In this document: one piece after another, positions 1 through 17,464 of the stretch | Layout: each line of letters opens with the position of its first letter | Position numbering within the stretch: position 1 is the stretch's first letter | Assembly (NCBI GenBank): GCA_949298795.1 | Contig: CASFXV010000002.1 | Span: 62,001-126,000 of the forward strand | Direction: 5' to 3' | Length of the DNA stretch: 64,000 nt | Source: an uncultured bacterium | Lineage (GTDB): Bacteria; Elusimicrobiota; Elusimicrobia; Elusimicrobiales; Elusimicrobiaceae | Program-made: the position numbers and the translations under genes | The notes under the pieces: model-generated | Seen by the model: the letters and a program-made list of their open reading frames with translations, nothing else | What the model was told of the DNA's origin: nothing | Database searches by the model: none

Positions 1-360
1 GTTTACAATCAAAAAACCGCAAAAGAAATTTTTGACTACGCCAAAGAGCTAGGCGCCAACCAAATCACCTTCCGGGAGTTATATGCCTCCGGTACGGGAA
101 CCCCGCAGGATAATTGGATAAAAGAACATGCCGTTTCTAAAACGCTGCTGCAAGAGATAAAATCTTTTATTAAAGAAAACGGGCGGCCGCTTCGCATTAT
201 GGAATACGGGCAAACCTTGTATTCCGTAGAGGGAATGTCTGTAGTGGTAGACGATGATTGCATGTCTACTGCGTTAAAAGAAGAAATGAAATACTTAATT
301 TTAAGGCCGGACTGCAAACTCTACTCTTTATGGGACGACAAAGGCAGCCTAGTCTTTTAA
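1..360 (+). CDS. C-terminal fragment of a probable radical SAM-like protein (partial)
   Basis: Frame 1 is open from the window edge to the TAA at 358-360, giving 119 residues with no start inside the window. The fragment has the look of the C-terminal half of a MoaA-like radical SAM protein: a conserved 'FRELYASGTGTP' segment, then a charged helix and an 'RIMEYGQTLY' strand. The CxxxCxxC cluster motif would lie upstream and is not visible, so the family call is a guess. It converges on nadR, and the two stop regions overlap by 12 bp (349-360). It is the only plus-strand gene on this side of the NAD operon. Confidence 0.5.
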   Translation, partial: VYNQKTAKEIFDYAKELGANQITFRELYASGTGTPQDNWIKEHAVSKTLLQEIKSFIKENGRPLRIMEYGQTLYSVEGMSVVVDDDCMSTALKEEMKYLILRPDCKLYSLWDDKGSLVF

Positions 361-1320
361 ATACTTTTTTACCGTGGCCATACGCTGCGCCAAAGAACCC
401 TTTAACCGAATAAACGGGATTTTGCGCTTTTCCAAATCGGCAATAATTTGCTGGTGGAAAACGCCTCTTTTCTGTTCTCCGCTCCGGTCCCAGGTGTCAT
501 CATAAGGGATATCATCTTCACACAGAAAAAACAAATCATAGCGGCTTTGGCACTGCTGGGCCAGACGGGTCATCTCCGGCAAGGCTTTGCCGTGATAATC
601 CAGCGAAAACATGTACGTGGTAATTGCATTGGTATCCACAAAAAAATATTTATTAGCCTCTTGAAGCAGCATGTCTTCCCTTGCTATATGCGTTTTGGCA
701 ATCGTAATAAACTCCTTAAGCCCAATACGCCTGTTTATTTGATGCTCGGCCCAATATTCCCGCCCGTATTCGGGCATCCATACGGTATTTAAGTCTTTGG
801 CTAACGCCTGTGCCAGCGTGGTTTTACCGGTGGACGGGGCGCCCATAAATACAATTTTCTGAATTAAATCCTTATACACCACCGGAGAGAGAAAACGTCT
901 GTTTTCAAATGTGTTTTGCCGGATTTTAGTGGCCGATACCGGAACCGTGCTTCGTTTTTCATCTACCCTTCTGTCTTGTGCGCCTAATGCACGGCTGACA
1001 TGTTCGCCGTAATATTCGCTGCAGTAGAAATGCGTAATGGGCTGCCCGTTAAGCAATTTTTTAATAAATTCTTCTTCGGCCTTTTCATACGCCGGCAAAG
1101 GCATATTTTCTGAAGGAGAGTTCCGCGCTTCAATTACTTTTACCTGCGGGTAAAGTGTTTTTATCCACCCGGCCCGAACATGCAACGGAACGGAAATCAG
1201 CGGCGTATCATAAATAATGACAAACAATTCATCCACTTCTTTTAAGGCCGTCTCAATCACATATTGATGTCCTTTATGCAGGGGAGCGTATTTGCCTAAC
1301 GTAAGTCCTATTTTTTTCAT
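349..1320 (-). CDS. nadR: Bifunctional NMN adenylyltransferase / nicotinamide riboside kinase NadR
   Basis: Cytoplasmic NAD+ salvage enzyme: the kinase domain phosphorylates nicotinamide riboside to NMN and the adenylyltransferase domain converts NMN to NAD+. The nucleotidyltransferase signature GKYAPLHKGH is at residues 9-18, a 'PVSATKIR' ISGTxIR-like motif near 127-134, and the kinase Walker A GAPSTGKT at 160-167. The 323-residue form starting at 1320 is preferred over an upstream start at 1356, because its ATG overlaps the pnuC stop as ATGA, implying translational coupling. There is no N-terminal HTH, unlike enterobacterial NadR, so it should be purely enzymatic. It directly follows the transporter that supplies its substrate. 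Confidence 0.93.
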   Translation of the reverse strand: MKKIGLTLGKYAPLHKGHQYVIETALKEVDELFVIIYDTPLISVPLHVRAGWIKTLYPQVKVIEARNSPSENMPLPAYEKAEEEFIKKLLNGQPITHFYCSEYYGEHVSRALGAQDRRVDEKRSTVPVSATKIRQNTFENRRFLSPVVYKDLIQKIVFMGAPSTGKTTLAQALAKDLNTVWMPEYGREYWAEHQINRRIGLKEFITIAKTHIAREDMLLQEANKYFFVDTNAITTYMFSLDYHGKALPEMTRLAQQCQSRYDLFFLCEDDIPYDDTWDRSGEQKRGVFHQQIIADLEKRKIPFIRLKGSLAQRMATVKKYLKD

Positions 1321-1997
1321 AATAAATCCCGGTTCTTTTGGGCGCCTAAATGCCATTTCACGGCGCCGTAAAAACTATTAACCAAATATAAAAACCACAT
1401 AAGCACCATCATTCTGCCTTCCGGGCTGCCTTGAAACCAACGTATGCTCCACATCAGCACCGTAAAGACATTAAGCGATATGTACAAAAACCACTGTTCC
1501 TGGAAGCGGTACATCATTAAAAAAGTCGCCGCGATAGACAATACATTGGTCAGCGCGTCTATGTAAGGGGTCTTTTGCGTATCAATGAGGGAAAGAGCCA
1601 GCCCCAACCCAACGGTGCATACAGCGCAAGCCACAAACAACCACACGCGTTTTGTTGCAGACATGCGCCGCATTAACACCACACGGTCTTTCATTTTATT
1701 TTTCCACAAAAACCACCCCGCAATGGAGGTGGGCACAAAGAACAATAAATTAAGGCCCATTTCCCCATATAAACCGTTGGTATAAGCCACGTAAGCGTAA
1801 GCCACGCAATTATACAGCCCTACGGGATACGTGCCAATATTTCCCCGGGCGGCTAAAATCACACACAACAAGCCGGAAAAAGTGACCGTAAACAGAAAAA
1901 AAGATTCCCGGGCGGCCGCCGCCACTACGCTTACCGTAAAGAGTAATATATAGGGATATAGTTTATCCAAATTTTTCCACGTGCTTCTTGTTTGCAT
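1317..1997 (-). CDS. pnuC: Nicotinamide riboside transporter PnuC
   Basis: Inner-membrane facilitator for nicotinamide riboside. The 226 residues form about seven hydrophobic segments, and the family's W-x-x-Y-x-x-x-N region is visible as 'WFLYISLNVFTVLMW' near residue 170. Length is normal for PnuC. The stop TGA overlaps the nadR ATG (1317-1320), so import and trapping by NadR kinase are coupled. A 57-nt gap separates it from the Nudix gene upstream. No separate strong promoter is seen in that gap, so it probably belongs to the same long transcript. An AGGA Shine-Dalgarno sits about 10 nt before the ATG. Confidence 0.92.
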   Translation of the reverse strand: MQTRSTWKNLDKLYPYILLFTVSVVAAAARESFFLFTVTFSGLLCVILAARGNIGTYPVGLYNCVAYAYVAYTNGLYGEMGLNLLFFVPTSIAGWFLWKNKMKDRVVLMRRMSATKRVWLFVACAVCTVGLGLALSLIDTQKTPYIDALTNVLSIAATFLMMYRFQEQWFLYISLNVFTVLMWSIRWFQGSPEGRMMVLMWFLYLVNSFYGAVKWHLGAQKNRDLL

Positions 1998-2054: not shown

Positions 2055-2939
2055 CTACCAAGTGTTATCTTTTAAAAAAGCGTTTAGATTGCGTTTGTAT
2101 AACTGGGCAGGCCGATGCCCGGCATTTGCCACGCTTTTAGCTGTTTCTGTTACATAAGGGGACATCTTGCGCCGAAAGTTAGCCGTCAGCAGTTTTTTAT
2201 CCAAAATGGTTTCATAAACCTGCTGCAGCGAAGTAAGCGTAAATAAGTCCGGCAAGAAACGAAATGCAACGGCCGATCTTCCCAACTCTTGGCGTATTTG
2301 TGTAATGGCAAAAGCAATAATTTGCGCGTGATCAAAAGCCAAGCCGTCATTGTGAAGAATTTTATAACACACTTCTTTATTATATAAAGACACTGTTTCA
2401 CGCAGTTCAACCGTGGAATTTAAAACAATATCCCCCGCAGTTAACTGCAAATGGTAGGTGGATGTATTCCGGCAGCCGTTTTTAAAGGCATACGTCTTTT
2501 GCTCTATAAGCCGGTATTTTACAGAAAACCAGCGCGCCTCTGCGGCATCCCGGGTGGCGGTTAAGGGGGTTTTGGGGGGTTCGGTCAAAGCCCAAAACGC
2601 GCTGGATACAATCCAACCGCGGGGGTCTCTTTTCGGAGCGCTGAAAAGGTGAAGCTGTTGCAAATCCGCCTTTTCTATGCCGGTTTCTTCATTTAGTTCA
2701 CGTTTGGCGGCTTGCTCCACGCTTTCTCCCTCGCGCACAAAACCGCCCGGCAGCGCCCACTTGTTTTTAAACGGGTGCTCCGCCCGTTTAATTAACAGCA
2801 AAGAAAACGCCTTTTCGGGAAGTTTACGGTAATTATCCGGCTTTAAGTCCAACACGGAAAACACCGTCATATCCACCGCTACGGACGGACGCTTATAGTC
2901 GTCTTGGTTATACTGTTTTAAAAAAACTTTTTCTTCCAT
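2055..2939 (-). CDS. NrtR-type Nudix protein: NAD-metabolism regulator or ADP-ribose pyrophosphatase
   Basis: The 294 residues carry an N-terminal Nudix domain and a C-terminal winged-helix region. The Nudix box is complete at residues 66-88 (G-x5-E-x7-REL-x-EETGI), so catalysis is possible. The C-terminal 'LFTLTSLQQVYETIL...NFRRKM' segment is the helix-turn-helix typical of NrtR repressors, which control NAD genes and respond to ADP-ribose. NrtR proteins usually have a degenerate Nudix box and are regulators only. Retention here allows a dual role or a plain ADP-ribose pyrophosphatase. The gene begins 1 bp after nadE stops, inside an operon of NAD salvage genes, which fits autoregulation. 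Confidence 0.82.
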   Translation of the reverse strand: MEEKVFLKQYNQDDYKRPSVAVDMTVFSVLDLKPDNYRKLPEKAFSLLLIKRAEHPFKNKWALPGGFVREGESVEQAAKRELNEETGIEKADLQQLHLFSAPKRDPRGWIVSSAFWALTEPPKTPLTATRDAAEARWFSVKYRLIEQKTYAFKNGCRNTSTYHLQLTAGDIVLNSTVELRETVSLYNKEVCYKILHNDGLAFDHAQIIAFAITQIRQELGRSAVAFRFLPDLFTLTSLQQVYETILDKKLLTANFRRKMSPYVTETAKSVANAGHRPAQLYKRNLNAFLKDNTW

Positions 2940-2940
2940 A

Positions 2941-3675
2941 TCATTTTTTGTAATTAAAAGCCGGCATCAACTGGGTTTTAAATAAATTTTTGGCATGCAA
3001 AGAATCTATTTTTTCTTTAAAATCCGGGTTTGGACATACGCCGCTGCGAATGTATTCATCCAACGCGGCATAGGTAAAACCCAGTTTTTCTTCGTCGCTT
3101 TTTCCGGTAAGGCCGTCAGCAGGAGCCTTGGTTACCAGGTATTCGGGCAAGCCCAGCTCTTTGCCAATTTCAATAATTTCCGTTACGGTCAAATTTAAAA
3201 GCGGGGCAAAATCCCCGGCGCCGTCTCCATAACGGGTAGAATAGCCTACCCAGGCTTCCGACAAGTTAGACGTATTAATCACCCGCCCGTTGACGGATTG
3301 CGCCACCGCATATAAAGCAGACATTCTAAGACGAGGAGCCAAATTAATGCGGCTCTGTGAAGTGACGGGAATTTGACCGGCCAGCTGCTCCAAAATACTA
3401 TCGTAAGCGGTTTGAATATTAATCTCAAACTTTTCAATACCCAAATGGCTGCAAACGGCCCGGGAATCGGCAATATCGCGCTGGGTTCCGTTGGGCATCA
3501 GCACGCCCACTACCCGGTCTTTTCCCAAAGCCCGCACACAAAGGGCCGCTACCACCGTGCTGTCTTTCCCGCCGGAAATCCCCACCACCGCTTTACAGCC
3601 TTTGCCGTCCGTTTCAAAACGCTGTTTTAACCAATTTACAGCTTGTTGAGTTACTTGTTTGGCATCAAACATCAT
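2941..3675 (-). CDS. nadE: NH3-dependent NAD+ synthetase
   Basis: ATP-dependent amidation of nicotinate adenine dinucleotide to NAD+ using ammonia. The PP-loop SGGKDS is at about residues 34-39, and the protein is the short single-domain form (244 residues) with no glutaminase domain. The C-terminal 'KAPADGLTGKSDEEKLGF' segment is the usual NadE signature. It starts with tandem ATGs right after the NadV-like gene, with GGAGG about 11 nt upstream inside that gene's 3' end. Its presence means the operon can also finish NAD+ from nicotinate-type intermediates, although no nicotinate phosphoribosyltransferase or NaMN adenylyltransferase is visible in the window. Confidence 0.92.
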   Translation of the reverse strand: MMFDAKQVTQQAVNWLKQRFETDGKGCKAVVGISGGKDSTVVAALCVRALGKDRVVGVLMPNGTQRDIADSRAVCSHLGIEKFEINIQTAYDSILEQLAGQIPVTSQSRINLAPRLRMSALYAVAQSVNGRVINTSNLSEAWVGYSTRYGDGAGDFAPLLNLTVTEIIEIGKELGLPEYLVTKAPADGLTGKSDEEKLGFTYAALDEYIRSGVCPNPDFKEKIDSLHAKNLFKTQLMPAFNYKK

Positions 3676-3676
3676 A

Positions 3677-5155
3677 TTAAAAAGTTCCTCCGTGCAAAAT
3701 AGTACGTACTTCTTGAAGTGTAAATTCTTTTGTCATTTTTCCGTCTTTAAAAACGCTTTGCAGCAGGTTTTCTTTCTCTTGCGGAAAAGTGTATTTATCC
3801 AAGCCATCTTCATAAGTGATACGGCCTTGAGCGTCTTTAAATACCCGGCATAAGCCGCGCTGGGATTTTTTGAAGTGGCCGTCATCGGTCTTCGGATTTT
3901 TAAATATCATAAGCGGCTTATCTTGCATTTCCGCATAGGTTGCTTTCACGGCAATTCCAAACGTATCCCGAGTAAAGGGTTTTAGTTCTTCCCCCTGTTC
4001 TAAGCATTGCATGGAAAAACTCCCCACCCCCAGCGATACATTATTGCAGGCAAATCCGTTTTCCACCAGCGTTTGATAGATTTTTTCCGCCCGCTGGGGA
4101 GTAATGCTGTCCCCGTAAATGGCTTTTATATGCGGGTTGAGCACTTTATACCCTTTGCTGTTTACGCTTCCGCCGAAGGTTTCCCATAAGTGAAAAACGG
4201 TTTTTGTAACAATATCAGCCGGGTCCCCACTGTCCCCTCTTACGCTAAGCGTACCTTGGTGGGCTAAAATTTGGTCTTTACAGCGAACCAGCAAATTATC
4301 CACCAAGTTCCAATAGTCGTAGCTGTCACTGACCATAGAAAAAGAGTGGTTCGGATAAATATCCTGCAGCAATCTTTTTATCATGGTAATTTCGTCCCCG
4401 TCTACGGCGTAGTTACTGCACATCACGGAATGTTCCGTACTAATAGCCCCAAAAGCCACGGGTTCTTTTGTGCAATCACAATTATAATAATGCTCCAGCC
4501 ATGCAATGGCGGGAACAGTGGCCGTATTTAAGAAAGATAAACAAAACGCCGCGCTGCTGGCCATGGCGCTTTCCAAACTTTCCTGGCCGCGCATACTAAA
4601 ATCCCCCATCGCCCGGGCACGGGGGACGGATTCCTCCACGCTTAAATCATAATACTTATTTACAATCTGTCTGTATTTATACCCTACGTTGGCGCAAAGC
4701 ATCGGGTGCCAAAGGGAACAGCTCATCAGCGTTTCAATGGCGTTTACCACCCAGGCAAATTGCGGGTGCGTGTTGCTGATTTCCAGCATAGGCACCTTAA
4801 CTGGAACGCGCGTCCCTTCCGCAATGGCTTTTATCTCCAGCGGCAGATAGCCTAAATCGTGCAAATCCGCTATTTTTTTATCTTGATAACTTCCGGCCCC
4901 AAGCGTATGGCTTAAAATCCGGTTATATTCTGCCAGGGCTTTCTCTTTGGGAATACGGAAAAAATGATTATTAAAATATTCAATCAAATATTTTTTGATA
5001 AATGCCTGCAAACCAAACATAACCAGTTTGTCTTCCCCTTCTAAACGCGTCATGCGCGGGGTAAAATAAGAAACCAGTTTGGTAATGGCTTGGGGGTATT
5101 GTTCGCTATGAACGGTTTTGTAAAAATCACATAACAAAAGAGGCGGTATGGGCAT
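3677..5155 (-). CDS. nadV: Nicotinamide phosphoribosyltransferase (NAMPT/NadV family; Namat alternative)
   Basis: The 492 residues align by eye along the whole of human NAMPT. Conserved landmarks are the D10/Y12/K13 start motif (DSYK equivalent), R189 in MRG (human R196), H242 in TEHS (H247), D277 in SDSYD, R306/D308 in RGDSGDP (R311/D313), and a C-terminal TRD. The residue matching human D219, which contacts the nicotinamide amide, appears to be Ala212 in NTAT, so substrate specificity may differ. The conventional reaction is nicotinamide + PRPP to NMN, which NadR would adenylate. Because it is paired with a short Prs-like gene, it could instead be a nicotinamide ADP-ribose transferase. A good AGGAG precedes the ATG. 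Confidence 0.85.
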   Translation of the reverse strand: MPIPPLLLCDFYKTVHSEQYPQAITKLVSYFTPRMTRLEGEDKLVMFGLQAFIKKYLIEYFNNHFFRIPKEKALAEYNRILSHTLGAGSYQDKKIADLHDLGYLPLEIKAIAEGTRVPVKVPMLEISNTHPQFAWVVNAIETLMSCSLWHPMLCANVGYKYRQIVNKYYDLSVEESVPRARAMGDFSMRGQESLESAMASSAAFCLSFLNTATVPAIAWLEHYYNCDCTKEPVAFGAISTEHSVMCSNYAVDGDEITMIKRLLQDIYPNHSFSMVSDSYDYWNLVDNLLVRCKDQILAHQGTLSVRGDSGDPADIVTKTVFHLWETFGGSVNSKGYKVLNPHIKAIYGDSITPQRAEKIYQTLVENGFACNNVSLGVGSFSMQCLEQGEELKPFTRDTFGIAVKATYAEMQDKPLMIFKNPKTDDGHFKKSQRGLCRVFKDAQGRITYEDGLDKYTFPQEKENLLQSVFKDGKMTKEFTLQEVRTILHGGTF

Positions 5156-5166
5156 ATAATCATCTC

Positions 5167-5943
5167 CTAAATAATTTCAATTAACGGATGCTGCGCGGTA
5201 AAAATACTGCAGGTGGTGTAAATACGTTCCACCAGGCCGCTTTTAATTAATTCCCCGTTAAGAATACTGTTTTCACAATGGGTAACATAAAGCCAAATTT
5301 TCTCAGCTCCCAATGTTTTTAGCTTTTTAGCCGCGTGATAGAACGTTCCCCCATAAGAGGATATATCGTCCACTATCAAGGCGTTAAAAGCAGAGGGAGG
5401 CACTTTTCCTTCCACTTTCAGCCCTAATATTTTTCCGGTTTTCCAATCCCGTTCTTTAACGCCGTAAATGACGTTTTTATCCGTATACTTTTGATACCGT
5501 TTACAAGATCCCGCGTCCGGAAAGAAAATAACGTCTTTTTCTGTCAGTAACTTTTGGGCCAGGGCGGCTATTTTTGGTTTTATATCCTCGCTGGAAATAC
5601 GTTCAATCATCTGCAAAGAAACATTTGAGTGGGCGTCGCGCACGATTACTTTCTCCAATCCCAAGCTATTAATAAACTGGGCAAAATACTTAAGAGTAAA
5701 CACTTCATCCTCATTTTTTACCCGGTCCATTCTGGCGTTGGGAATATAAGGCAAATACAACGTTATTTTTTCGGTGCCATGCTCTTTTAAATGATTGACC
5801 AAGAAAAACAGCGTCACGCATTCTTCATTATTTTCAAAAAGCCACTCTACAGCTGCATTTTTCCCCTGCGGGGGCAAATTTAAACGGAGGGTGCCGTCCG
5901 GATAATACTGCGGAGTGATTTTCAGTTCGTTTACCTTAATCAT
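5167..5943 (-). CDS. Short ribose-phosphate pyrophosphokinase-like protein (Prs or Adps-type)
   Basis: This is a phosphoribosyltransferase-fold protein of the PRPP-synthetase family, but only 258 residues against about 315 for housekeeping Prs. Recognisable parts are ARMDR at 70-74 (ARQDR in Prs), RDAHS at 102-106 (the D-x-H metal/ATP element), a KERDWKTGK loop at 163-171, and VDDISSYGGTF at 191-201 replacing the canonical VDDMIDTGGT. In a housekeeping role it would make PRPP for the adjacent NAMPT-like enzyme. In the phage NARP1 pathway the homologous partner (Adps) instead makes ADP-ribose pyrophosphate. The divergent loop, truncated C-terminus and strict linkage to nadV make the second reading possible. 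AGGAGG is upstream. Confidence 0.8.
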   Translation of the reverse strand: MIKVNELKITPQYYPDGTLRLNLPPQGKNAAVEWLFENNEECVTLFFLVNHLKEHGTEKITLYLPYIPNARMDRVKNEDEVFTLKYFAQFINSLGLEKVIVRDAHSNVSLQMIERISSEDIKPKIAALAQKLLTEKDVIFFPDAGSCKRYQKYTDKNVIYGVKERDWKTGKILGLKVEGKVPPSAFNALIVDDISSYGGTFYHAAKKLKTLGAEKIWLYVTHCENSILNGELIKSGLVERIYTTCSIFTAQHPLIEII

Positions 5944-5953
5944 AACCTGCCTC

Positions 5954-6469
5954 CTATATTACACCAATTTGGCACTGCTTCATGGCTTCCAGCGCATTGG
6001 CATGGCTTTGCGGAGTAACCCCCGCGCAAGCATTGCCGTCCACGGTAATATTCACCTCCGGCAGAACCGCTTTTAATATTAATGCGTTGGAAATAACACA
6101 AATATCCGTGCATACCCCCACCAATTCTATTTCCTGCACGGAAGGATAATGTGTTTTGATATATTCCGCCAATTCCAAAGAGCCAAAAGAAGGTTTATCT
6201 ATTATGACGCTGCCGGCAACGTCTAACGAAGAATCTATCTCCCACCCGGCCGAACCTTTTATACAATGTTTAACGGGAAGATTTTTCCCTTCCTGGGTTT
6301 CTAAATAGTTTTCTTGGTGGGTATCCCTGGTAAAAAGGACAGGCGCATTACAGCGCTTATATTCTTTTATTTTGGCTTGTACAGCCGGCAAAATATGCCG
6401 GGCTTCTTTTGTGCCTAAAGAACCGTCTATAAAATCTTTTTGCATGTCTATTACAATTAATAGTTTCAT
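5954..6469 (-). CDS. pncA: Nicotinamidase (PncA-like isochorismatase family)
   Basis: Hydrolyses nicotinamide to nicotinate. With the start at 6469 (MKLLIVIDMQKDF, GGGAG eight nt upstream) the protein has 171 residues and the full PncA set: catalytic D8, K92 and C124 (in CTDIC), plus metal ligands D49, H51 and probably H68. An in-frame start at 6502 would add 11 residues, but lies in the inferred 5' leader. It is the first gene of the NAD operon, 39 nt below a predicted transcription start. Having both a nicotinamidase and a NAMPT-like enzyme is unusual because they compete for nicotinamide. Other isochorismatase-family amidases remain possible, but the context favours PncA. Confidence 0.87.
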   Translation of the reverse strand: MKLLIVIDMQKDFIDGSLGTKEARHILPAVQAKIKEYKRCNAPVLFTRDTHQENYLETQEGKNLPVKHCIKGSAGWEIDSSLDVAGSVIIDKPSFGSLELAEYIKTHYPSVQEIELVGVCTDICVISNALILKAVLPEVNITVDGNACAGVTPQSHANALEAMKQCQIGVI

Positions 6470-6492: not shown

Positions 6493-6524
6493 TTATTATC
6501 ATTTTAATAATATCATTATAATAA
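6493..6524. repeat. AT-rich inverted/direct repeats over the NAD-operon promoter (candidate operator)
   Basis: Arms TTATTAT (6493-6499) and ATAATAA (6518-6524) form an inverted repeat. Inside it TATCATT occurs twice with a 14-bp period (6497 and 6511). The block spans the -10 box and predicted start site of the operon that encodes an NrtR-like protein, so it is a plausible binding site. AT-rich sequence makes such repeats easy to find by chance. Confidence 0.3.
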
Positions 6525-6543
6525 TTTTTATTTTGTTTTTCAA
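6515..6543 (-). promoter_or_regulatory. Promoter of the NAD salvage operon
   Basis: On the minus strand the -35 box TTGAAA (6543-6538) and the -10 box TATAAT (6520-6515) are separated by exactly 17 bp. This is the best sigma70-type promoter in the window together with the one at 27933-27961. The predicted start near 6508 leaves a leader of about 39 nt before pncA. Confidence 0.8.
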
Positions 6544-10673: not shown

Positions 10674-11925
10674 TTTTTTCTTCTCCCAAATAATGCGGGG
10701 TAATGGTCATTACTTTGGCGGCAATGTCCGGGTGATGATAGATAAAGCGCAACTCGCTTTCCACCAGCGGCAGCTGGTTGTGTACGTTGGCGTAGCGCAC
10801 CAGTTCCAAAATTTCACGAGCGTGGGCGTCACTCTTAAATTCCAGCTCCAGCTTTTCGTAAACGTTGCGAAAGCCTTTAATACCGCCATACTCCCCGGTG
10901 GTAATTACGCGGCCGGTTTCTATCACTTCCGGCTCCCCGCGGCCCATTTCTTCAAAATCATACAGTTCATAATTGCGGCGGTCTTTTAAAGCGCCGTCCG
11001 CATGAATGCCGGACTCGTGCGCAAACGCATTGGCCCCCACCGCCGGCTGGTTGATGGGTATCGGCACGCCAAACGCGTAAGACGCGTACTTAGCCAACTG
11101 CCAAGCTTTGTTTAGGCGAATATTGGGGTTTAATTTATAATCCCCCATGCCGCTGCCATGCACAATGGCCAACAGACAGGAAACCAAATCCGCATTGCCG
11201 GCGCGTTCCCCCAAACCGTTTACGGTGGTGTTAATAAACGCTTCCACGCCGCCGTCCACCGCGCCTTTGGCGCCCATGACGGAGTTGGCCACCGCCATAC
11301 CCAAATCATTATGACAATGCAATTCTATGCCAATGCCGGAAGCTTCGGCAATTTTGCGTATGCGGCTATAGATAACGTCCGGCGTGTCATAGCCCAGCGT
11401 ATCGCAATAGCGAAAGCGTGAAGCGCCGGCTTCTTTGGCGGCGCAGGCGAACTCAACCAAAAAATCCAAGTCCGTGCGGGAGGCGTCCTCCGCGTTTACC
11501 CCCACGCTTAAGGCCCCCTTGGCTTTAGCCGCTTTTACCGCATGTACGGCTTTATTTAAAATGGCCTTGCGGTCAAAACGGCCTCCAAATTTGCCGGCCA
11601 GCATTTGGTCTGACGTGGACATAGACAAATTGCAATACTGCAAGCCGGGCACGTTTTTATAAGCCAGCTCTACATCCTCTTCCACCGCGCGCAGCCAGCC
11701 GCTTAAACGGGTTTTGGTGATAATACCTTGTTTTACCAGTTTTAAATTGGCGTTTAAATAATTGGTTTCATGGCTGGTAGTGGGAAAACCAAATTCTGAG
11801 AAAGCAACCCCCAGCTCATTCAAGTAACAATTCAACATGGTTTTTTGAAGTTTAGACAGACCTAAGCGGGAGGTTTGCACCCCGTCCCGGTTGGTAACGT
11901 CTACAATCCAAATCGTATGCTTCAT
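10666..11925 (-). CDS. Re-type citrate synthase (homocitrate synthase/isopropylmalate synthase family)
   Basis: DRE-TIM metallolyase of 419 residues condensing acetyl-CoA with a 2-oxo acid. The N-terminus carries DVTNRDGVQT (D-x-RDGxQ metal/substrate motif), then 'SEFGFPTTSHE', 'LHCHNDLGMAVANS' with metal His residues, and 'NGLGERAGN'. The VTNRDGVQT / FGFPTTxHE variant is the one I associate with the Re-citrate synthases of clostridia and other anaerobes, not with LeuA or NifV. Followed by aconitase and isocitrate dehydrogenase, it would supply 2-oxoglutarate for glutamate without a Si-citrate synthase. Homocitrate synthase for lysine or other use is the main alternative. GGAGG precedes the ATG. 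Confidence 0.8.
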   Translation of the reverse strand: MKHTIWIVDVTNRDGVQTSRLGLSKLQKTMLNCYLNELGVAFSEFGFPTTSHETNYLNANLKLVKQGIITKTRLSGWLRAVEEDVELAYKNVPGLQYCNLSMSTSDQMLAGKFGGRFDRKAILNKAVHAVKAAKAKGALSVGVNAEDASRTDLDFLVEFACAAKEAGASRFRYCDTLGYDTPDVIYSRIRKIAEASGIGIELHCHNDLGMAVANSVMGAKGAVDGGVEAFINTTVNGLGERAGNADLVSCLLAIVHGSGMGDYKLNPNIRLNKAWQLAKYASYAFGVPIPINQPAVGANAFAHESGIHADGALKDRRNYELYDFEEMGRGEPEVIETGRVITTGEYGGIKGFRNVYEKLELEFKSDAHAREILELVRYANVHNQLPLVESELRFIYHHPDIAAKVMTITPHYLGEEKNA

Positions 11926-11958
11926 ATCGGGTCCTCCAAAATCTTTTTATATTCGTAG

Positions 11959-11986
11959 ATTTTAGCATATTTATACACGCTGTCTT
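11959..11986 (-). promoter_or_regulatory. Promoter of the citrate synthase operon
   Basis: Minus-strand extended -10 TGC-TAAAAT (TAAAAT at 11964-11959) with AAGACA 16 bp upstream (11986-11981). It lies between the terminator of the upstream gene and the synthase SD, leaving a leader of about 25-30 nt. Confidence 0.55.
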
Positions 11987-12012
11987 AGGGGAAATTAACA
12001 AAAAACCCCAAT

Positions 12013-12039
12013 AAAAACCCCGCTTTAAAAACAGCGGGG
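12013..12039 (-). terminator. Terminator of the secreted paralogue at 12052
   Basis: On the minus strand CCCCGCT / AGCGGGG stem (12039-12033 with 12024-12018) with an A/T-rich loop, followed by a T run. Confidence 0.75.
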
Positions 12040-12051
12040 AACAATAAAATG

Positions 12052-13506
12052 TTATTTGGGTTTATTCCGGTGATACTTTTGGAATAATTCCTGAAATTTT
12101 TCCCGGTATGGGCCGGGTACCCTCTTATAATGGCAGGATGTGCTATACAGCGAAGAAGAAGACGGAGGGAACTTGCCATGAACAGAAACATACTCCAGCA
12201 ACCTCTCATAAAGGCCTTTCTCAGGCAAAAACTGCTGCTGCTGTTTTAAACGCTGCAAAACAAGACGGGCCCCCAACAAATCCGGGTTATCCTGCAAGGT
12301 TTCCACCTTGGAAAACAAAACTGTTCCTTCTTGCGGCCATTGGCGGTTTTTCAACACATAAGTTTTTAATTCTTCCAATACACCCAATACCTGCGCGTGG
12401 GGTTCCCCGCCAGCCATCACGCCCTTTGCCAAGTTGGAAGCATAGTGTTCATACAACGCCAAACCCGCCCGGTACTTCTCCGCCGGGGGAACATACGCTC
12501 TAAACGCTTGTTCGGCTTCGCGCCGGGCAACGGCGGAAACATAGGGGCTGTACAATACTTTTATTACTTTCCAGGAAATCAAAGCCTCTCCTTCGGCAAA
12601 GGCCTTAAAAGATTGCCCGAAGGCCGATTTGGTGTTGTGTTGTTTCTTCTTTATATCCAATTGCACCAAGCGGGAAGAAAGCGTTTTTTCCATTTGGTCA
12701 ATACGCTGGTTAATTTCTTGTTGCTGCCAAGGGAACAGCCTGTCATAATGTTTTTTATAAAATTCCAGGGATTGGCCCTTCCCCCCATATAGAGACCCCA
12801 TTACCCTGCGGATAGCTTCCCGGCGGGCGGTATTCCCCTGTTCCGGAAGAACTAATTTTGCCGGGTGAAGGTCGTCCCATTCATACATTTGGGAAAGTGT
12901 CTTCAAGTTTTTATCATGCTGCACCGTTGAAATTCTTTGATGGAGCAAAGCCTTGTCACTGCGGGCCAAAATGTTACCGGCGTTGGAAAAATCCAGCTTG
13001 GAAAGGGACCATAAAATGTTGCGGTACTCGTTTGGCGCAAGCAATTTTTCCTGCAGGGCGCCGTTTAATAAAGCCACCGCTTTTTTAAGTTCCGCGCCGT
13101 CATATAAATTAAACTGTAAAAATTGTCGGCTTAAATCCTTGCGGGAAGAAACGGATTTAGCAGAAGCACCTTCCGGTAAAGAAAATTCTTCCCCCGTCAG
13201 CCAGCTGTGCACCAAAGCCTGCGCCTGCGCGTACTGACCGGAGCGGAAAAGAGCCTCTAAACCGTCACGCTGGGGGCCGGCGGGAACGCGTTTGAACAAT
13301 AAAAAAGAAACGCGCTGCAAATCCCTGCAGGAACGAAAACTCCTTAATTTAGTAAGGCGCTTTTCCAATTCCAACAGGTCTTTTTCGGAGGCTTTTACGC
13401 TGCCGGCGGCAAGTTTTTTGCCTACAGCCTCAATCACCGGTTTCTGAGCAAAGGCAGCCGGGCACAACAAAAATACACACAATATAAAACAGGCTATTTT
13501 CTTCAT
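12052..13506 (-). CDS. Secreted protein of unknown function, tandem paralogue A
   Basis: About 484 residues with a clear signal peptide (MKKIACFILCVFLLCPAAFA). I do not recognise a family. It is mostly alpha-helical and lysine/glutamine-rich. It carries two copies of a short repeat: an N-terminal 'FKRVPAGPQRDGLEALF' and a C-terminal 'YKRVPGPYREKFQELF', with a 'NRQWPQEGTVLF' stretch before the second. The neighbour at 13664 is a full-length paralogue, so this is a tandem duplication. An in-frame TTG at 13515 is an alternative start and sits closer to a GGGG that may act as Shine-Dalgarno. The promoter region contains the shared leader element at 13526-13595. Confidence 0.75.
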   Translation of the reverse strand: MKKIACFILCVFLLCPAAFAQKPVIEAVGKKLAAGSVKASEKDLLELEKRLTKLRSFRSCRDLQRVSFLLFKRVPAGPQRDGLEALFRSGQYAQAQALVHSWLTGEEFSLPEGASAKSVSSRKDLSRQFLQFNLYDGAELKKAVALLNGALQEKLLAPNEYRNILWSLSKLDFSNAGNILARSDKALLHQRISTVQHDKNLKTLSQMYEWDDLHPAKLVLPEQGNTARREAIRRVMGSLYGGKGQSLEFYKKHYDRLFPWQQQEINQRIDQMEKTLSSRLVQLDIKKKQHNTKSAFGQSFKAFAEGEALISWKVIKVLYSPYVSAVARREAEQAFRAYVPPAEKYRAGLALYEHYASNLAKGVMAGGEPHAQVLGVLEELKTYVLKNRQWPQEGTVLFSKVETLQDNPDLLGARLVLQRLKQQQQFLPEKGLYERLLEYVSVHGKFPPSSSSLYSTSCHYKRVPGPYREKFQELFQKYHRNKPK

Positions 13507-13525
13507 TATTATCAAGATATAAAAA

Positions 13526-13595
13526 CCCCGACATCCCCAGCCAGGGCCTTAAGACCTAACTTCCGTGGTTTTTGGACCTATGTTCACTAGGCCCA
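13526..13595 (-). promoter_or_regulatory. Shared leader element, copy A
   Basis: Reading on the minus strand: TGGGCCTA, then TAGGTCC and TAGGTCT half-sites, AAGGCCCTGG, and finally GGGG about 11-20 nt before the start codon. The same ordered blocks occur upstream of the genes at 13664 and 43799. GGTC-TTAA-GGCC can form a short hairpin, and GGGCCT can pair with AGGCCC. Confidence 0.5.
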
Positions 13596-13623
13596 GCCGC
13601 TATTATCTATGGAATAACGCTTT

Positions 13624-13646
13624 AAAAAGACCCTGTTTACACAGGG
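13624..13646 (-). terminator. Terminator of paralogue B
   Basis: Minus-strand hairpin CCCTGT / ACAGGG (13646-13631, 4-nt loop) followed by a T run, 18 bp after the stop codon of the gene ending at 13664. Confidence 0.75.
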
Positions 13647-13663
13647 GCAAAGAGACATAAAAC

Positions 13664-15109
13664 CTATTTCATATAATGATATTTTTCAAACAATTTAAGG
13701 AAACGCTCCCGATACGGCCCCGGAATTTTTTTATAACGCATAAGCGCATGATACAAAGAAGAGGTAGACGGAGGCAATTTGCCATGCTGGGCAATATAAT
13801 TCTGAAGAGAAACATATATTTCTTTTTCCGGCAACTTCTGTTGCTTCTGTTTCAAACGCTTTATCATCAGTTTGGCCCCGTCCAAATCAGGGGCAGTTTC
13901 CAGTTCCTGTAAACGGACAAACAAAGCAGACCCCTCCTGCGGCCATTGGCGGTTTTTAGCCAAATACTCATCCAATTCCTGTAAAGGTCCCAACACCTGT
14001 TGCATCTCCGGAGACACAACCAGATTTTTATCTAAATTTTGGGAATATTCCTCATACAAGGCCACCCCCGCTATTACTTCTTCCCCGTAGGAAAGACCTC
14101 CGGACAAAGCCTTTTCAGCCGCACGGCGGGCGGGGCCGGATACATAAGGGCTGTAAAGCACCTGCATTACCGTCCAGGAAGAATTGACCACCCCGGTTAC
14201 AAAACGGGCAAATACAAAGGAAAAATGCCGTTTATCCATATGTCCTTTGTTTGATGCGTTTGCTTGCAATACGCGCTGGGCAATGGTTTGTTCCATTTGG
14301 TCTATTTGCGCGTCCAATTCTTGCTGGCGCCAGGGCGGAAGCTGCTCATAATAGGCTTGATGAACAGACAAAGGCTTTTTCTTGCCCCCTGCTAACGGGC
14401 CTAATACTTGGCGGATGGCCTCCCGACGGGAAATGTTGTCCAAAGGCGGTATTTCCATCGGACGCGGATTTAGATCTTCCCATTCATACATTTTGGCAAG
14501 CTGAAGCTGCGCTTTTTCGCATTGGGGTTGGGGAATCGTATGATGCAAAATGGCTTTGCCGTTACGGGTTAAAATATATTCCGCATTGCGAAAATCCAAG
14601 CGGGAAAGAGACCATATAATATTGCGGTACTCATTTAAATTTAGTAATTTTGCCTGCCAGCCCGCCTGTAAAAACAGAACCGCTTTTTTTAACTCCGGGC
14701 CTTTAGAAAGGTCAAACTCCAGAAAGCGGGCGGCAAATTCCGCGCGGCGGCTTTTAGGTTTAACGGGAGCGGGCTGTTTAAATAAATCCTCCCCCGTCAG
14801 CCACATATGCACCTTGGCCTGCGCCTGCAGATATTTACCGCAACGGAACAAATCCTCCAGCGCATCACGCTGGGGGCCGGGCTCCACCCTGTATTTAAGC
14901 AACAAATCAACTCTTGCCAAACTGGTGGGGTTTGGTTCTTTTCTTAGTATAATAAAACGTTTTTCCAATTCTTTTAAGTCTCTTTCCGTCGCTTTTACGC
15001 CAAAAGACTCCGCCTTCTTGCAGAAAGTTTTTATAACATTCTTTTGGGCAAAAGAATAAGAAGAAATAAACAAAACCAATAAAAAACCATAAAATATTTT
15101 TTTCATCAT
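13664..15109 (-). CDS. Secreted protein of unknown function, tandem paralogue B
   Basis: About 481 residues, collinear with the product of 12052-13506 over its whole length. Shared blocks include 'GPQRDALEDLFRCGKY', 'NEYRNIIWSLSRLDF', 'MYEWEDLNPRP', 'VLYSPYVSGPARR' and the C-terminal 'YKKIPGPYRERF'. A signal peptide ends near FISSYSFAQ. No catalytic motif is visible, and a helical repeat scaffold is likely. Start uncertain: tandem ATGs at 15109/15106, an in-frame TTG at 15124 eight nt from GGGGG, and GTG at 15130. Separate terminators and leader elements show that A and B are transcribed independently despite being adjacent. Confidence 0.75.
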   Translation of the reverse strand: MMKKIFYGFLLVLFISSYSFAQKNVIKTFCKKAESFGVKATERDLKELEKRFIILRKEPNPTSLARVDLLLKYRVEPGPQRDALEDLFRCGKYLQAQAKVHMWLTGEDLFKQPAPVKPKSRRAEFAARFLEFDLSKGPELKKAVLFLQAGWQAKLLNLNEYRNIIWSLSRLDFRNAEYILTRNGKAILHHTIPQPQCEKAQLQLAKMYEWEDLNPRPMEIPPLDNISRREAIRQVLGPLAGGKKKPLSVHQAYYEQLPPWRQQELDAQIDQMEQTIAQRVLQANASNKGHMDKRHFSFVFARFVTGVVNSSWTVMQVLYSPYVSGPARRAAEKALSGGLSYGEEVIAGVALYEEYSQNLDKNLVVSPEMQQVLGPLQELDEYLAKNRQWPQEGSALFVRLQELETAPDLDGAKLMIKRLKQKQQKLPEKEIYVSLQNYIAQHGKLPPSTSSLYHALMRYKKIPGPYRERFLKLFEKYHYMK

Positions 15110-15132
15110 ACTAATAAAATACAATAACACGG

Positions 15133-15182
15133 CCCCCGTAGACAGGGCCTAAAGTCCTATATTTAACCGCTTTTTAGGCCCA
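15133..15182 (-). promoter_or_regulatory. Shared leader element, copy B
   Basis: Minus strand: TGGGCCTAAA, then TAGGACT, TTTAGGCCCTG and GGGGG. Here GGGCCTAAA and TTTAGGCCC are perfect 9-nt complementary arms around a 19-nt loop. The element lies immediately after the terminator at 15196-15219, so the promoter must overlap it or lie inside it. Confidence 0.5.
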
Positions 15183-15195
15183 TCTTCCGTAAATT

Positions 15196-15219
15196 AAAAC
15201 CCCCGCTTGACTGCCAAGC
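15196..15219 (-). terminator. Terminator of the GGDEF-EAL gene
   Basis: Minus-strand CCCCCGCTTGG / CAAGCGGGGG-type hairpin followed by TTTTAATTT, 11 bp beyond the stop of the gene ending at 15230. Confidence 0.85.
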
Positions 15220-15229
15220 GGGGGGTTTA

Positions 15230-17464
15230 TTAAAGGCTTTTTAGAAATGCCTCCGGGGGAAGCGGGTCTCCCCATAAAGAGCCGGAAACAAAACGGATGT
15301 CGTTTTGTTTTAAGAACTCTGCCTGTTTGGCGGTAGTCACGCCGTCAAACTCAAGCCCGGCGCCCAAAGCAGAAGCCAAATATTTAAAAGAATCAAACAT
15401 TTGTTTCATGCGCGTTAAATCTTGGGTATCGGGTACCGCCACCACCTGCACCTTAAGCCACTGTGCTTTTACTTTAGCCAAAAATTGAATGGCGGAAAGT
15501 CCCTCCCCAAAACGGCTTACCCCAATCACAAAACCTTCTTTTTGCAAACGGGTGCCCAAATCAATTAAGTCATTAATGCTGTGCTCCATAGAATTTTGGG
15601 AAAGGTCCAGTTCCAAATCCGCCGGGTTTACTTTATAACTGTCCGCCAATTTCTTTAATGCGGACGAGAAATACGGATTATATATATGCAGCGGGGATAA
15701 AGTAACCGAAAAAGGCCCCTCTTGCCGGCCCTGGGAACGAAGCGTTTTAATCAGCTTAAGCACTTCTTCCACTACAAACATGTCTATGCGGCGGGCAAAA
15801 CCGTTGCGCTCAAAAATAGGGCGGAAGGTGTGCCCATGCAAATCCCCCAGCACCGGGTGTTGCCAAAGCACCCGCGCCGCCGCGCGCACCACACGGCCGG
15901 AAGTTAAATCCCGCACCGGCATAAGCATAAGTTTAAACTCACCGCGGGAAAGGGCTCCTTCCATATCATTTTCCAGGCGTTTTTCCAAATTGGCCTGGGT
16001 GAGCATATCCTCGTTAAAAAAGGCAACCGCTTCTACGCTGTATTTTACGCTGCGGCGCGCCAAAAAAGAACGGTTCACCATTTCCTCTATGGGCATTTGC
16101 TTGTCTTTAATAAGGTACACGCCAAAAGAAAGAAGCAGCCGCAAAGAAGGCGTCTTTTTGCCGGGGGTGGAGAGGATTTCTTCATTTATTAATTCCAACC
16201 GGTTGCGAAGGCTTTGCTCGTCCTGATACTTTAACAACAGCTGGAAGCGGTCCGTTTCCATGCGGGAAAATTCTTCCCCTTCCTTTATATGGCTGGCCAA
16301 TATTTGGGAAATATGCTTTAGCAGTTCATCCCCGCTGCCCGGGCCGTAAATGTTGGATATAATTTTAAAACGGTCTACATCCAGCGTTACAAAAGCATAA
16401 AGTTGCTGCGGGTTGGCTTTTAATAAAGAAGCCAACACTTGCTGCATTTTATTCCAATTAGGCAGACCGGTAACAGGGTCTTCATACGTTGCGCGCTCCA
16501 AGGCAAAACGGTTGGATTTCTGCACCGCCAAAATATAATACAACAATAAAGCAATTAAACCCAGCCCCGCCGCCATAAAAGCAAGCGTCAGCCACACCAA
16601 ACGGGCGGTTTTCACCAAAAGCACTTTTTCCGGAACCAATGAAACCATATACCAATCGTTGATGCCCACCGGCACATAGCTGGCGTACATGCGCCCGCCT
16701 TTGCGCGTGGTAAACAATAAGCTCCCCGTGCGGCCCGCCAGCATATCTTCTTTCATCTTGGAAACGTCTTCTTGGGTATGCCAAGTAAGGTTATCGCGGT
16801 CTGCAAAGATATTGGTAAAGTTTTCAATAGCCGTTTCATGGTTGGCGTTAATGACCTTATCCCCGTTGGAACGCACAATTACATTGTACCCTTGCCCCCC
16901 AAAGCTGTATACGGACAAAATATCCGTATATACGGCAATGGAGCGGGTAGACGCCAAAACGCCTTTTACCTCCCCGTCTTTAAAAACAGGGACCGCCTGC
17001 ACGATAATTTCTTTGCCGTCCGTAGAGTCTTTGCGGCGCTGGGACAGGGCGGCCTTGCCCTGCATGGCTTGTAAAAAGGCCGGCTGGGAAGAGGCGTCCA
17101 TTACAAAACCGTCATTAAATACGGCATATCCGTCCGGGCGGATAAAAGCCATTCTTTTGAACGAATTATTCTTAGTTTCCGCATTCAGCAAATCCATCAT
17201 TTTTTCTTTATCTAAAGAAGTATACCCGGCAATAGCCGTAGCCATGGATTTAAGAGAGTCTTCGTCCCCTTCAATTTGCGTTTGTAAAATTCTTACCCCT
17301 TGGCGGGCGACTTCTTCCAAGCTGGAGCGAACCTCGCTTTCCAACGTGCGCTGAAGCCGGCCCACATACAGCAAACTCATCAAAGCTAAAACAGCTAAAA
17401 AACCCGTTACCGCCAAAAACGGAAGCAAAAACGGATATTTATTTTTCAGTTCTTTAAAGTGCAT
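15230..17464 (-). CDS. Membrane dCache receptor with degenerate GGDEF and EAL domains
   Basis: 744 residues. TM1 about 10-34, periplasmic double-Cache-like sensor about 35-285, TM2 about 288-313, GGDEF fold about 325-485, EAL fold about 490-740. The GGDEF signature is ETDRF (403-407) and the EAL triad is AAR (528-530 within RAAARVLWQHP), so neither cyclase nor phosphodiesterase activity is expected. It is more likely a c-di-GMP or GTP receptor, or a scaffold. The ATG at 17464 is chosen because AGGGGGG sits 3 nt upstream. A TTG at 17479 would overlap the preceding gene. Co-transcribed with the unknown gene ending at 17473. Confidence 0.82.
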   Translation of the reverse strand: MHFKELKNKYPFLLPFLAVTGFLAVLALMSLLYVGRLQRTLESEVRSSLEEVARQGVRILQTQIEGDEDSLKSMATAIAGYTSLDKEKMMDLLNAETKNNSFKRMAFIRPDGYAVFNDGFVMDASSQPAFLQAMQGKAALSQRRKDSTDGKEIIVQAVPVFKDGEVKGVLASTRSIAVYTDILSVYSFGGQGYNVIVRSNGDKVINANHETAIENFTNIFADRDNLTWHTQEDVSKMKEDMLAGRTGSLLFTTRKGGRMYASYVPVGINDWYMVSLVPEKVLLVKTARLVWLTLAFMAAGLGLIALLLYYILAVQKSNRFALERATYEDPVTGLPNWNKMQQVLASLLKANPQQLYAFVTLDVDRFKIISNIYGPGSGDELLKHISQILASHIKEGEEFSRMETDRFQLLLKYQDEQSLRNRLELINEEILSTPGKKTPSLRLLLSFGVYLIKDKQMPIEEMVNRSFLARRSVKYSVEAVAFFNEDMLTQANLEKRLENDMEGALSRGEFKLMLMPVRDLTSGRVVRAAARVLWQHPVLGDLHGHTFRPIFERNGFARRIDMFVVEEVLKLIKTLRSQGRQEGPFSVTLSPLHIYNPYFSSALKKLADSYKVNPADLELDLSQNSMEHSINDLIDLGTRLQKEGFVIGVSRFGEGLSAIQFLAKVKAQWLKVQVVAVPDTQDLTRMKQMFDSFKYLASALGAGLEFDGVTTAKQAEFLKQNDIRFVSGSLWGDPLPPEAFLKSL

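Follow-up and report, generated by a model that had tools for sequence, protein, structure and literature searches.

Gene organization of the operon

The window, i.e. the whole stretch of 64,000 nucleotides analysed in this work, contains adjacent genes resembling prs and nadV, which raises the question of what reaction of NAD metabolism the pair carries out and with which substrates. The earlier note on this DNA had placed a possible Adps-Namat (NARP1-type) module at positions 3677-5943, and both open reading frames are found there, next to each other on the minus strand. These coordinates omit half of the system, as pncA lies upstream of the pair and nadE, nrtR, pnuC and nadR lie downstream. 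The complete operon reads pncA, adps-like, namat-like, nadE, nrtR, pnuC and nadR; all its genes are co-directional and either overlap or are separated by gaps of 2-58 bp.

The first gene (5954..6469, on the minus strand like all the genes below) encodes a pncA-like nicotinamidase of 171 aa, recognized by the Isochorismatase Pfam model at 106 bits. The ORF list set its start at 6502, within the candidate operator described below, and the conserved start, MKLLIV, is at 6469. Among solved structures the protein matches the pyrazinamidase/nicotinamidase of Pyrococcus best (1ilw/1im5, E 2.4e-16), and the curated PncA model matches it below the cut-off only; its specificity for nicotinamide is presumed from family membership. 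The next genes encode a Prs-fold protein of 258 aa (Adps-like, 5167..5943), a predicted ADP-ribose pyrophosphokinase, and a Namat-like transferase of 492 aa with an altered pyridine pocket (3677..5155), a predicted nicotinate ADP-ribosyltransferase. They are followed by nadE, encoding a short NH3-dependent NAD synthetase of 244 aa (2941..3675), and by nrtR (2055..2939), encoding a regulator with NUDIX and NrtR winged-helix domains and an intact Nudix box, GFVREGESVEQAAKRELNEETGI. The ADP-ribose-type Nudix regulator reported earlier is present, but it comes after nadE and not directly next to nadV. The downstream part of the operon, pnuC for a nicotinamide riboside transporter (1317..1997) and a nadR-like gene for an NMN adenylyltransferase/ribosylnicotinamide kinase (349..1356), lies outside the conserved core.

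Both the adps-like and the namat-like gene have intact frames and evolve under strong purifying selection. Each was compared with an orthologue in another Elusimicrobiales genome: Namat is 82.9% identical (pN 0.112 vs pS 0.837) and Adps 71.3% identical (pN 0.19 vs pS 0.78). The intact frames and pN values far below pS ruled out chance ORFs or pseudogenes.

Relationship of the central enzymes to Adps and Namat

The short Prs-like protein carries the VDDISSYGGT loop, quoted correctly in the earlier note, at residues 191-200 (5344..5373, minus strand). In the alignment its Prs counterpart is DDIVDTAGT, and the ribose-5-phosphate loop DT(A/G)GT of PRPP synthetase is replaced by SYGGT. The protein is 42% identical to the SPbetaL1 Adps (155 bits) vs 26% to the Prs of its own genome (60 bits), and it matches PHROG 619, the phage family of the SPbetaL1 Adps and Felixounavirus proteins, at 228 bits, while its score with the Prs model TIGR01251 is under the cut-off (100.7 vs 113 bits). 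By these comparisons it groups with the verified Adps and not with PRPP synthetase, which bears out the lineage suspected before, and ADPR-PP formation is predicted from the close relation to the assayed Adps. Its predicted structure matches PRPP synthetases, as expected since no Adps structure has been reported (PMC12774641). The lack of a second prs gene had been named as an argument against an Adps; a separate, full-length housekeeping prs is present on another contig (G000:C4:17258-18172, 382 bits).

Among solved structures the NadV-like protein matches the SPbetaL1 Namat best (433 bits), with the Xanthomonas NAMPT at 176 bits. Its AlphaFold2 model (pLDDT 93) has Namat as the top fold match (TM 0.92, 43% identity), followed by HdNadV and then human NAMPT (28% identity). 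The protein groups with the verified Namat and not with NAMPT, and clustering with NMN-forming NadV/NAMPT, the other possibility raised earlier, was not seen. It also scores over the cut-off of the NCBIfam model PRK09198 (468 bits), named nicotinate phosphoribosyltransferase; the PncB family model TIGR01513 has no match in the genome, the window gene included.

The clamp-helix (selectivity clamp) region, GSFSMQCLEQGEELKPFTRD (3965..4024, minus strand), contains the Namat GSX..TRD motif, lengthened by 9 residues. With respect to the full motif, GSx-phi-x-phi-x-phi-TRD with aromatics at positions 3 and 7, the Phe at position 3 and TRD are kept, 9 residues are inserted, position 7 is not aromatic, and the aromatic at position 396 is absent. 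The clamp residues R37 (the counterpart of SPbetaL1 clamp-loop Arg40), F380 and T395-R396-D397 are kept. Insertions of 9 to 45 residues in the clamp helix are found in the larger subgroup of these proteins, to which the window belongs. A Clostridium-type sister subclade with the same pocket has a complete adenine/ADPR-PP clamp with both aromatics in 29/29 members and shares 59% identity with the verified SPbetaL1 Namat; the full clamp and this identity to an assayed enzyme make ADPR-PP a well-supported donor there. The ADPR-PP preference of the window Namat is less certain than that of the Clostridium subclade because of the clamp insertion and the missing aromatic.

The NadV of Haemophilus ducreyi (plasmid record NC_005329.1; PDB 9ke8/9keo), crystallised with NMN, is 55.7% identical to the SPbetaL1 Namat, and its clamp region reads GAQTYQRNTRD.

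The altered pyridine pocket

Pocket numbering was mapped to human NAMPT through PMC12774641, PMC4442680 and PMC4186856, and 55 Asp-type Namats (53 Asp, 2 Glu) were compared with 124 of the Ala/Ser type (A/S). In the SPbetaL1 Namat nicotinamide is contacted by Phe189, Arg192, Asp215, Ala242, Arg306, Asp13' and Tyr15'; Asp215 forms a hydrogen bond with it, and the D215A enzyme formed 8.1-fold less NAD+ from nicotinamide (PMC12774641). The equivalent Asp219 is described as fundamental to the substrate specificity of NAMPT (PMC7096376), where it forms one hydrogen-bonded tunnel wall with His191 and Gly217 (PMC4186856).

In the window protein this nicotinamide-recognition position is occupied by Ala212 (4520..4522, minus strand, as are the other three codons). 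Gly184 (4604..4606) corresponds to SPbetaL1 His187 and human His191, Gly236 (4448..4450) to SPbetaL1 Ser239 and human Ser241, and Ser239 (4439..4441) to SPbetaL1 Ala242 and human Ala244. The four positions split the two types completely or nearly so: 187 from His to Gly/Ala/Ser, 215 from Asp/Glu to Ala/Ser, 239 from Ser to Gly and 242 from Ala to Ser. Position 215 is Ala or Ser in all 125 non-redundant A/S loci, window included (Ser in 19), and the equivalent of human NAMPT Gly217 is also altered in the subclade of the window. F189, R192, H245, R306, D308 and the clamp TRD are common to both types, and the catalytic core is kept in the window. Human NAPRT has Ser at the place structurally equivalent to Asp219 (PMC4442680). 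The profile alignment to PncB put the Ser of its GTSN motif opposite Asp215/Ala212, although with a weak overall profile score that makes this a hint only.

Glu stands in place of Asp at 215 in two Namat-type proteins, from Prevotella phage Lak-B3 (L221) and from locus L191, and neither PncA nor NadE is encoded nearby.

Operon content across related loci

Relatives were gathered from IMG/VR (120 loci), GTDB genomes (80 loci), phages and plasmids. The survey was based on 183 non-redundant loci (97% identity), with neighbours counted within 8 kb. Sequence comparison demonstrated PncA and/or NadE near 122 of 125 Ala/Ser-type Namats (110 PncA, 95 NadE) vs 0 of 54 Asp-type ones (Fisher p about 1e-42, kinship among loci not being corrected for); three A/S loci had neither gene within this distance. 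Adps was equally common with both types (118/125 Ala/Ser-type vs 49/54 Asp-type, p 0.35), hence the difference in PncA and NadE is not a contig-end effect. Through 33 different arrangements the genes remain linked and in the same orientation. Twelve plasmid loci, fetched later with an Asp-type query, all agreed with the residue-operon rule: 11 are Asp-type and lack both PncA and NadE, and the remaining one, from Acetoanaerobium noterae, is Ala-type with PncA, NadE and an NrtR-like gene.

At the 125 A/S loci, those of phages included, PncB was never found and NadD was found once; a NadR-like gene was present at two, one of them the window. The near absence of all three suits direct NaAD formation and not a PRPP-based route. 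A macrodomain gene, which may supply ADP-ribose to the pathway, occurs at 34/125 variant loci (about a quarter).

In many phage and clostridial copies the macrodomain gene sits between namat and nadE (e.g. L005:16648-17181). The 'hypothetical protein' of phage Phass-1 (L006:8974-9897) is a NadE, encoded beside the nicotinamidase, Adps and Namat-like genes of this phage. On a Curtobacterium plasmid (L238:9506-10624) an Asp-type Namat gene precedes two others, one of the NADAR family and one encoding a Nudix protein, possibly another ADP-ribose recycling set.

The variant type occurs in phages, Clostridia, Elusimicrobia and archaea. In a careful 34-row tree the A/S-type Namats form one clade (support 99/92), with one change in 98% of bootstrap trees. 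Accordingly, the residue switch and the change of operon content happened probably once and were kept rather than replicated; the strength of the association lies in its retention across a deep, horizontally spread clade and through many rearrangements, not in repeated origin. Two separate origins of the variant were considered as a quick tree left Phass-1 outside the clade, and were rejected since the careful tree places it inside. No relatives of the Phass-1 Namat were found in IMG/VR.

Putative regulation by NrtR

A promoter-like site, TTGAAA-17-TATAAT (6515..6543, minus strand; 11/12, consensus match only), precedes the operon, and beside its -10 box lies the palindrome ATTATTAAAATGATAAT (6495..6511), one mismatch from the consensus ATTATCAnnnTGATAAT, a candidate NrtR operator. 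The palindrome ATTATCAnnnTGATAAT, with up to 3 mismatches, was found upstream of the operon in 39/48 NrtR-bearing loci, whereas shuffled sequences contained it in about 9% of cases. The window NrtR has the expected domains and scores below the NCBI equivalog cut-off; NCBIfam names the family ADPR-responsive repressor. NrtR may bind at the palindrome and would in this way control the operon. ADP-ribose releases NrtR-family repressors from DNA, so it would be both inducer and substrate. With its Nudix box intact, the window NrtR may also hydrolyse ADP-ribose.

Proposed pathway and alternative explanations

We infer, with a probability of about two in three, that the operon is a deamido version of NARP1 NAD+ reconstitution which uses nicotinate instead of nicotinamide. 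NAD+ broken by NADases or ADP-ribosylation would yield nicotinamide and ADP-ribose. PncA, judging by its family, would convert nicotinamide to nicotinate, and the Adps-like enzyme would form ADPR-PP by moving pyrophosphate from ATP onto ADP-ribose, as its assayed relative does. The Namat variant, to judge from its pocket and operon, would join nicotinate to ADPR-PP and form NaAD directly, from which NadE would make NAD+ with NH3 and ATP, as members of its family do. Through NrtR the operon would be switched on as ADP-ribose rises. It also appears reasonably probable that a nicotinate ADP-ribosyltransferase (nicotinate + ADPR-PP -> NaAD + PPi) forms, with Adps, PncA and NadE, a self-contained deamido pathway in phages, Clostridia, Elusimicrobia and archaea, in many cases with an ADP-ribose-sensing repressor.

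The same genes could serve an ordinary deamido salvage, in which the Prs-like protein makes PRPP, the NadV-like protein is a nicotinate phosphoribosyltransferase producing NaMN, the host NadD converts this to NaAD and NadE finishes. Such a route explains PncA, NadE and the loss of Asp215 equally well, NadD is present in the host, the PRK09198 match bears the appropriate name, and the near structural relative HdNadV was crystallised with NMN. It is nevertheless unlikely: the Prs-like protein falls below the Prs cut-off and groups with Adps, a full prs already exists in the genome, NadD is missing from 124/125 A/S loci, including the phage ones, and the ADPR-PP clamp is complete in the Clostridium-type subclade.

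Alternatively, Adps and Namat could join nicotinamide to ADPR-PP and yield NAD+ as in canonical NARP1, with PncA and NadE belonging to an independent neighbour route. The lineage, the conserved clamp residues and the catalytic residues agree with this, and the SPbetaL1 D215A enzyme, 8.1-fold reduced, retained some activity (PMC12774641). We consider it decidedly improbable as the nicotinamide pocket residues are gone from all variant members, PncA would use up the nicotinamide, PncA and NadE never occur in Asp-type operons, and the genome has no PncB for the neighbour route. A plain NMN-forming NadV with a second PRPP synthetase, the default annotation, has in its favour the automated names and the NadR and PnuC of the same operon, which could handle NMN/NR, but is scarcely credible given a NAMPT match weak relative to Namat, the lost Asp219 equivalent, a Prs-like protein that is not a Prs and a housekeeping prs that leaves no PRPP shortage to be expected.

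The nicotinate/NaAD/NadE route thus fits the operon better, since Asp215 is lost and the linked PncA would destroy nicotinamide. Of the Adps-Namat module proposed in the earlier note the lineage stands, whereas nicotinamide-using chemistry does not agree with Ala in place of Asp215, the three other changed pocket positions and the linked PncA.

Host genome and surroundings

The host is a gut bacterium; its genome, 92% complete, measures 1.56 Mb. The operon is carried by 3/66 genomes of its genus and by 4/90 of the family; such rarity indicates an accessory, probably mobile trait. The genus has de novo nadC, nadD and a second, two-domain nadE. No other NaPRT-fold gene was found anywhere in the genus, so the nicotinate of the operon has no other known user there; clostridial hosts carry PncB too, which gives nicotinate another user. 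The suggestion that the operon repairs NAD+ after the NADase toxins of the host itself found no support, as neither TIR_2 nor SIR2_2 NADase domains are present in the assembly. One macrodomain gene lies elsewhere in the genome. PADLOC called no core gene as a defence gene and gave only two weak matches to unrelated models.

Roughly 5-9 kb past the nadR end of the operon (L231:3846-7745 = G000:C2:53846-57745) come a restriction gene of the GmrSD/HEC-06-like kind and a DUF6119 gene, with a ParB-MTase gene beyond, and the region therefore resembles a mobile island or a defence island. A radical SAM gene adjoins nadR (L231:11488-12360). In an Elusimicrobiales relative (L092:4329-5933, 11123-17233) the operon adjoins a large serine recombinase; after the operon, several radical SAM proteins are encoded in a row, along with a second NAD-synthase-like gene, whose product has 350 aa.

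Significance and comparison with known systems

In the open-access literature searched, no description of a nicotinate version of NARP1 and no co-mention of NARP1 with nicotinamidase were found, and an earlier account may exist elsewhere. NaAD, nicotinate and PncA are absent from the Namat paper, which states that the role of chromosomal NARP1 systems needs further study (PMC12774641). The proposed pathway, if true, would add a new reaction to NAD metabolism, the formation of a dinucleotide from nicotinate in one step, and would explain the nicotinamidase and NAD synthetase beside misannotated 'prs' and 'nadV' in phages and gut bacteria. NAD+ reconstitution would then exist in two chemical versions, separated in genomes by a testable four-residue rule, and a phage counter-defence that also clears nicotinamide, via PncA, would be predicted. 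An ADP-ribose-controlled bacterial operon would support a role of chromosomal NARP1 systems in NAD/ADPR homeostasis.

The closest known system is NARP1 (Adps-Namat) of Bacillus phage SPbetaL1 and Paenibacillus foliorum, of which bacterial chromosomal members are known. Both have an adjacent Prs-fold Adps and NadV-fold Namat with the same catalytic residues, identity of the window proteins being 42% for Adps and about 43% for Namat, and the Namat-type clamp GSx...TRD is intact in the sister subclade and extended in the window. The window differs in its pocket (H187G, D215A, S239G, A242S), in the predicted substrate, nicotinate, and product, NaAD, and in the near-obligate PncA and/or NadE partners of the variant, often with NrtR or a macrodomain protein. 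The proposed route starts with PncA and finishes with NadE, as does Preiss-Handler salvage (PncA, PncB, NadD, NadE), but a single pair of the Adps/Namat type takes the place of PncB and NadD, and the predicted donor is ADPR-PP, not PRPP. The NAMPT/NadV enzymes (human, Xanthomonas, HdNadV) have the type II PRTase fold and the catalytic His, Arg and Asp in common with the window protein, in which the equivalents of Asp219, His191, Ser241 and Ala244 are all changed and identity to human NAMPT is 28%. Finally, an NrtR-like Nudix plus winged-helix protein and a promoter palindrome, here a candidate operator, are common to this operon and NrtR-regulated NAD salvage operons; unlike in those, the window NrtR would govern an ADP-ribose-consuming pathway, whose inducer (ADPR, by family) would be its own substrate.
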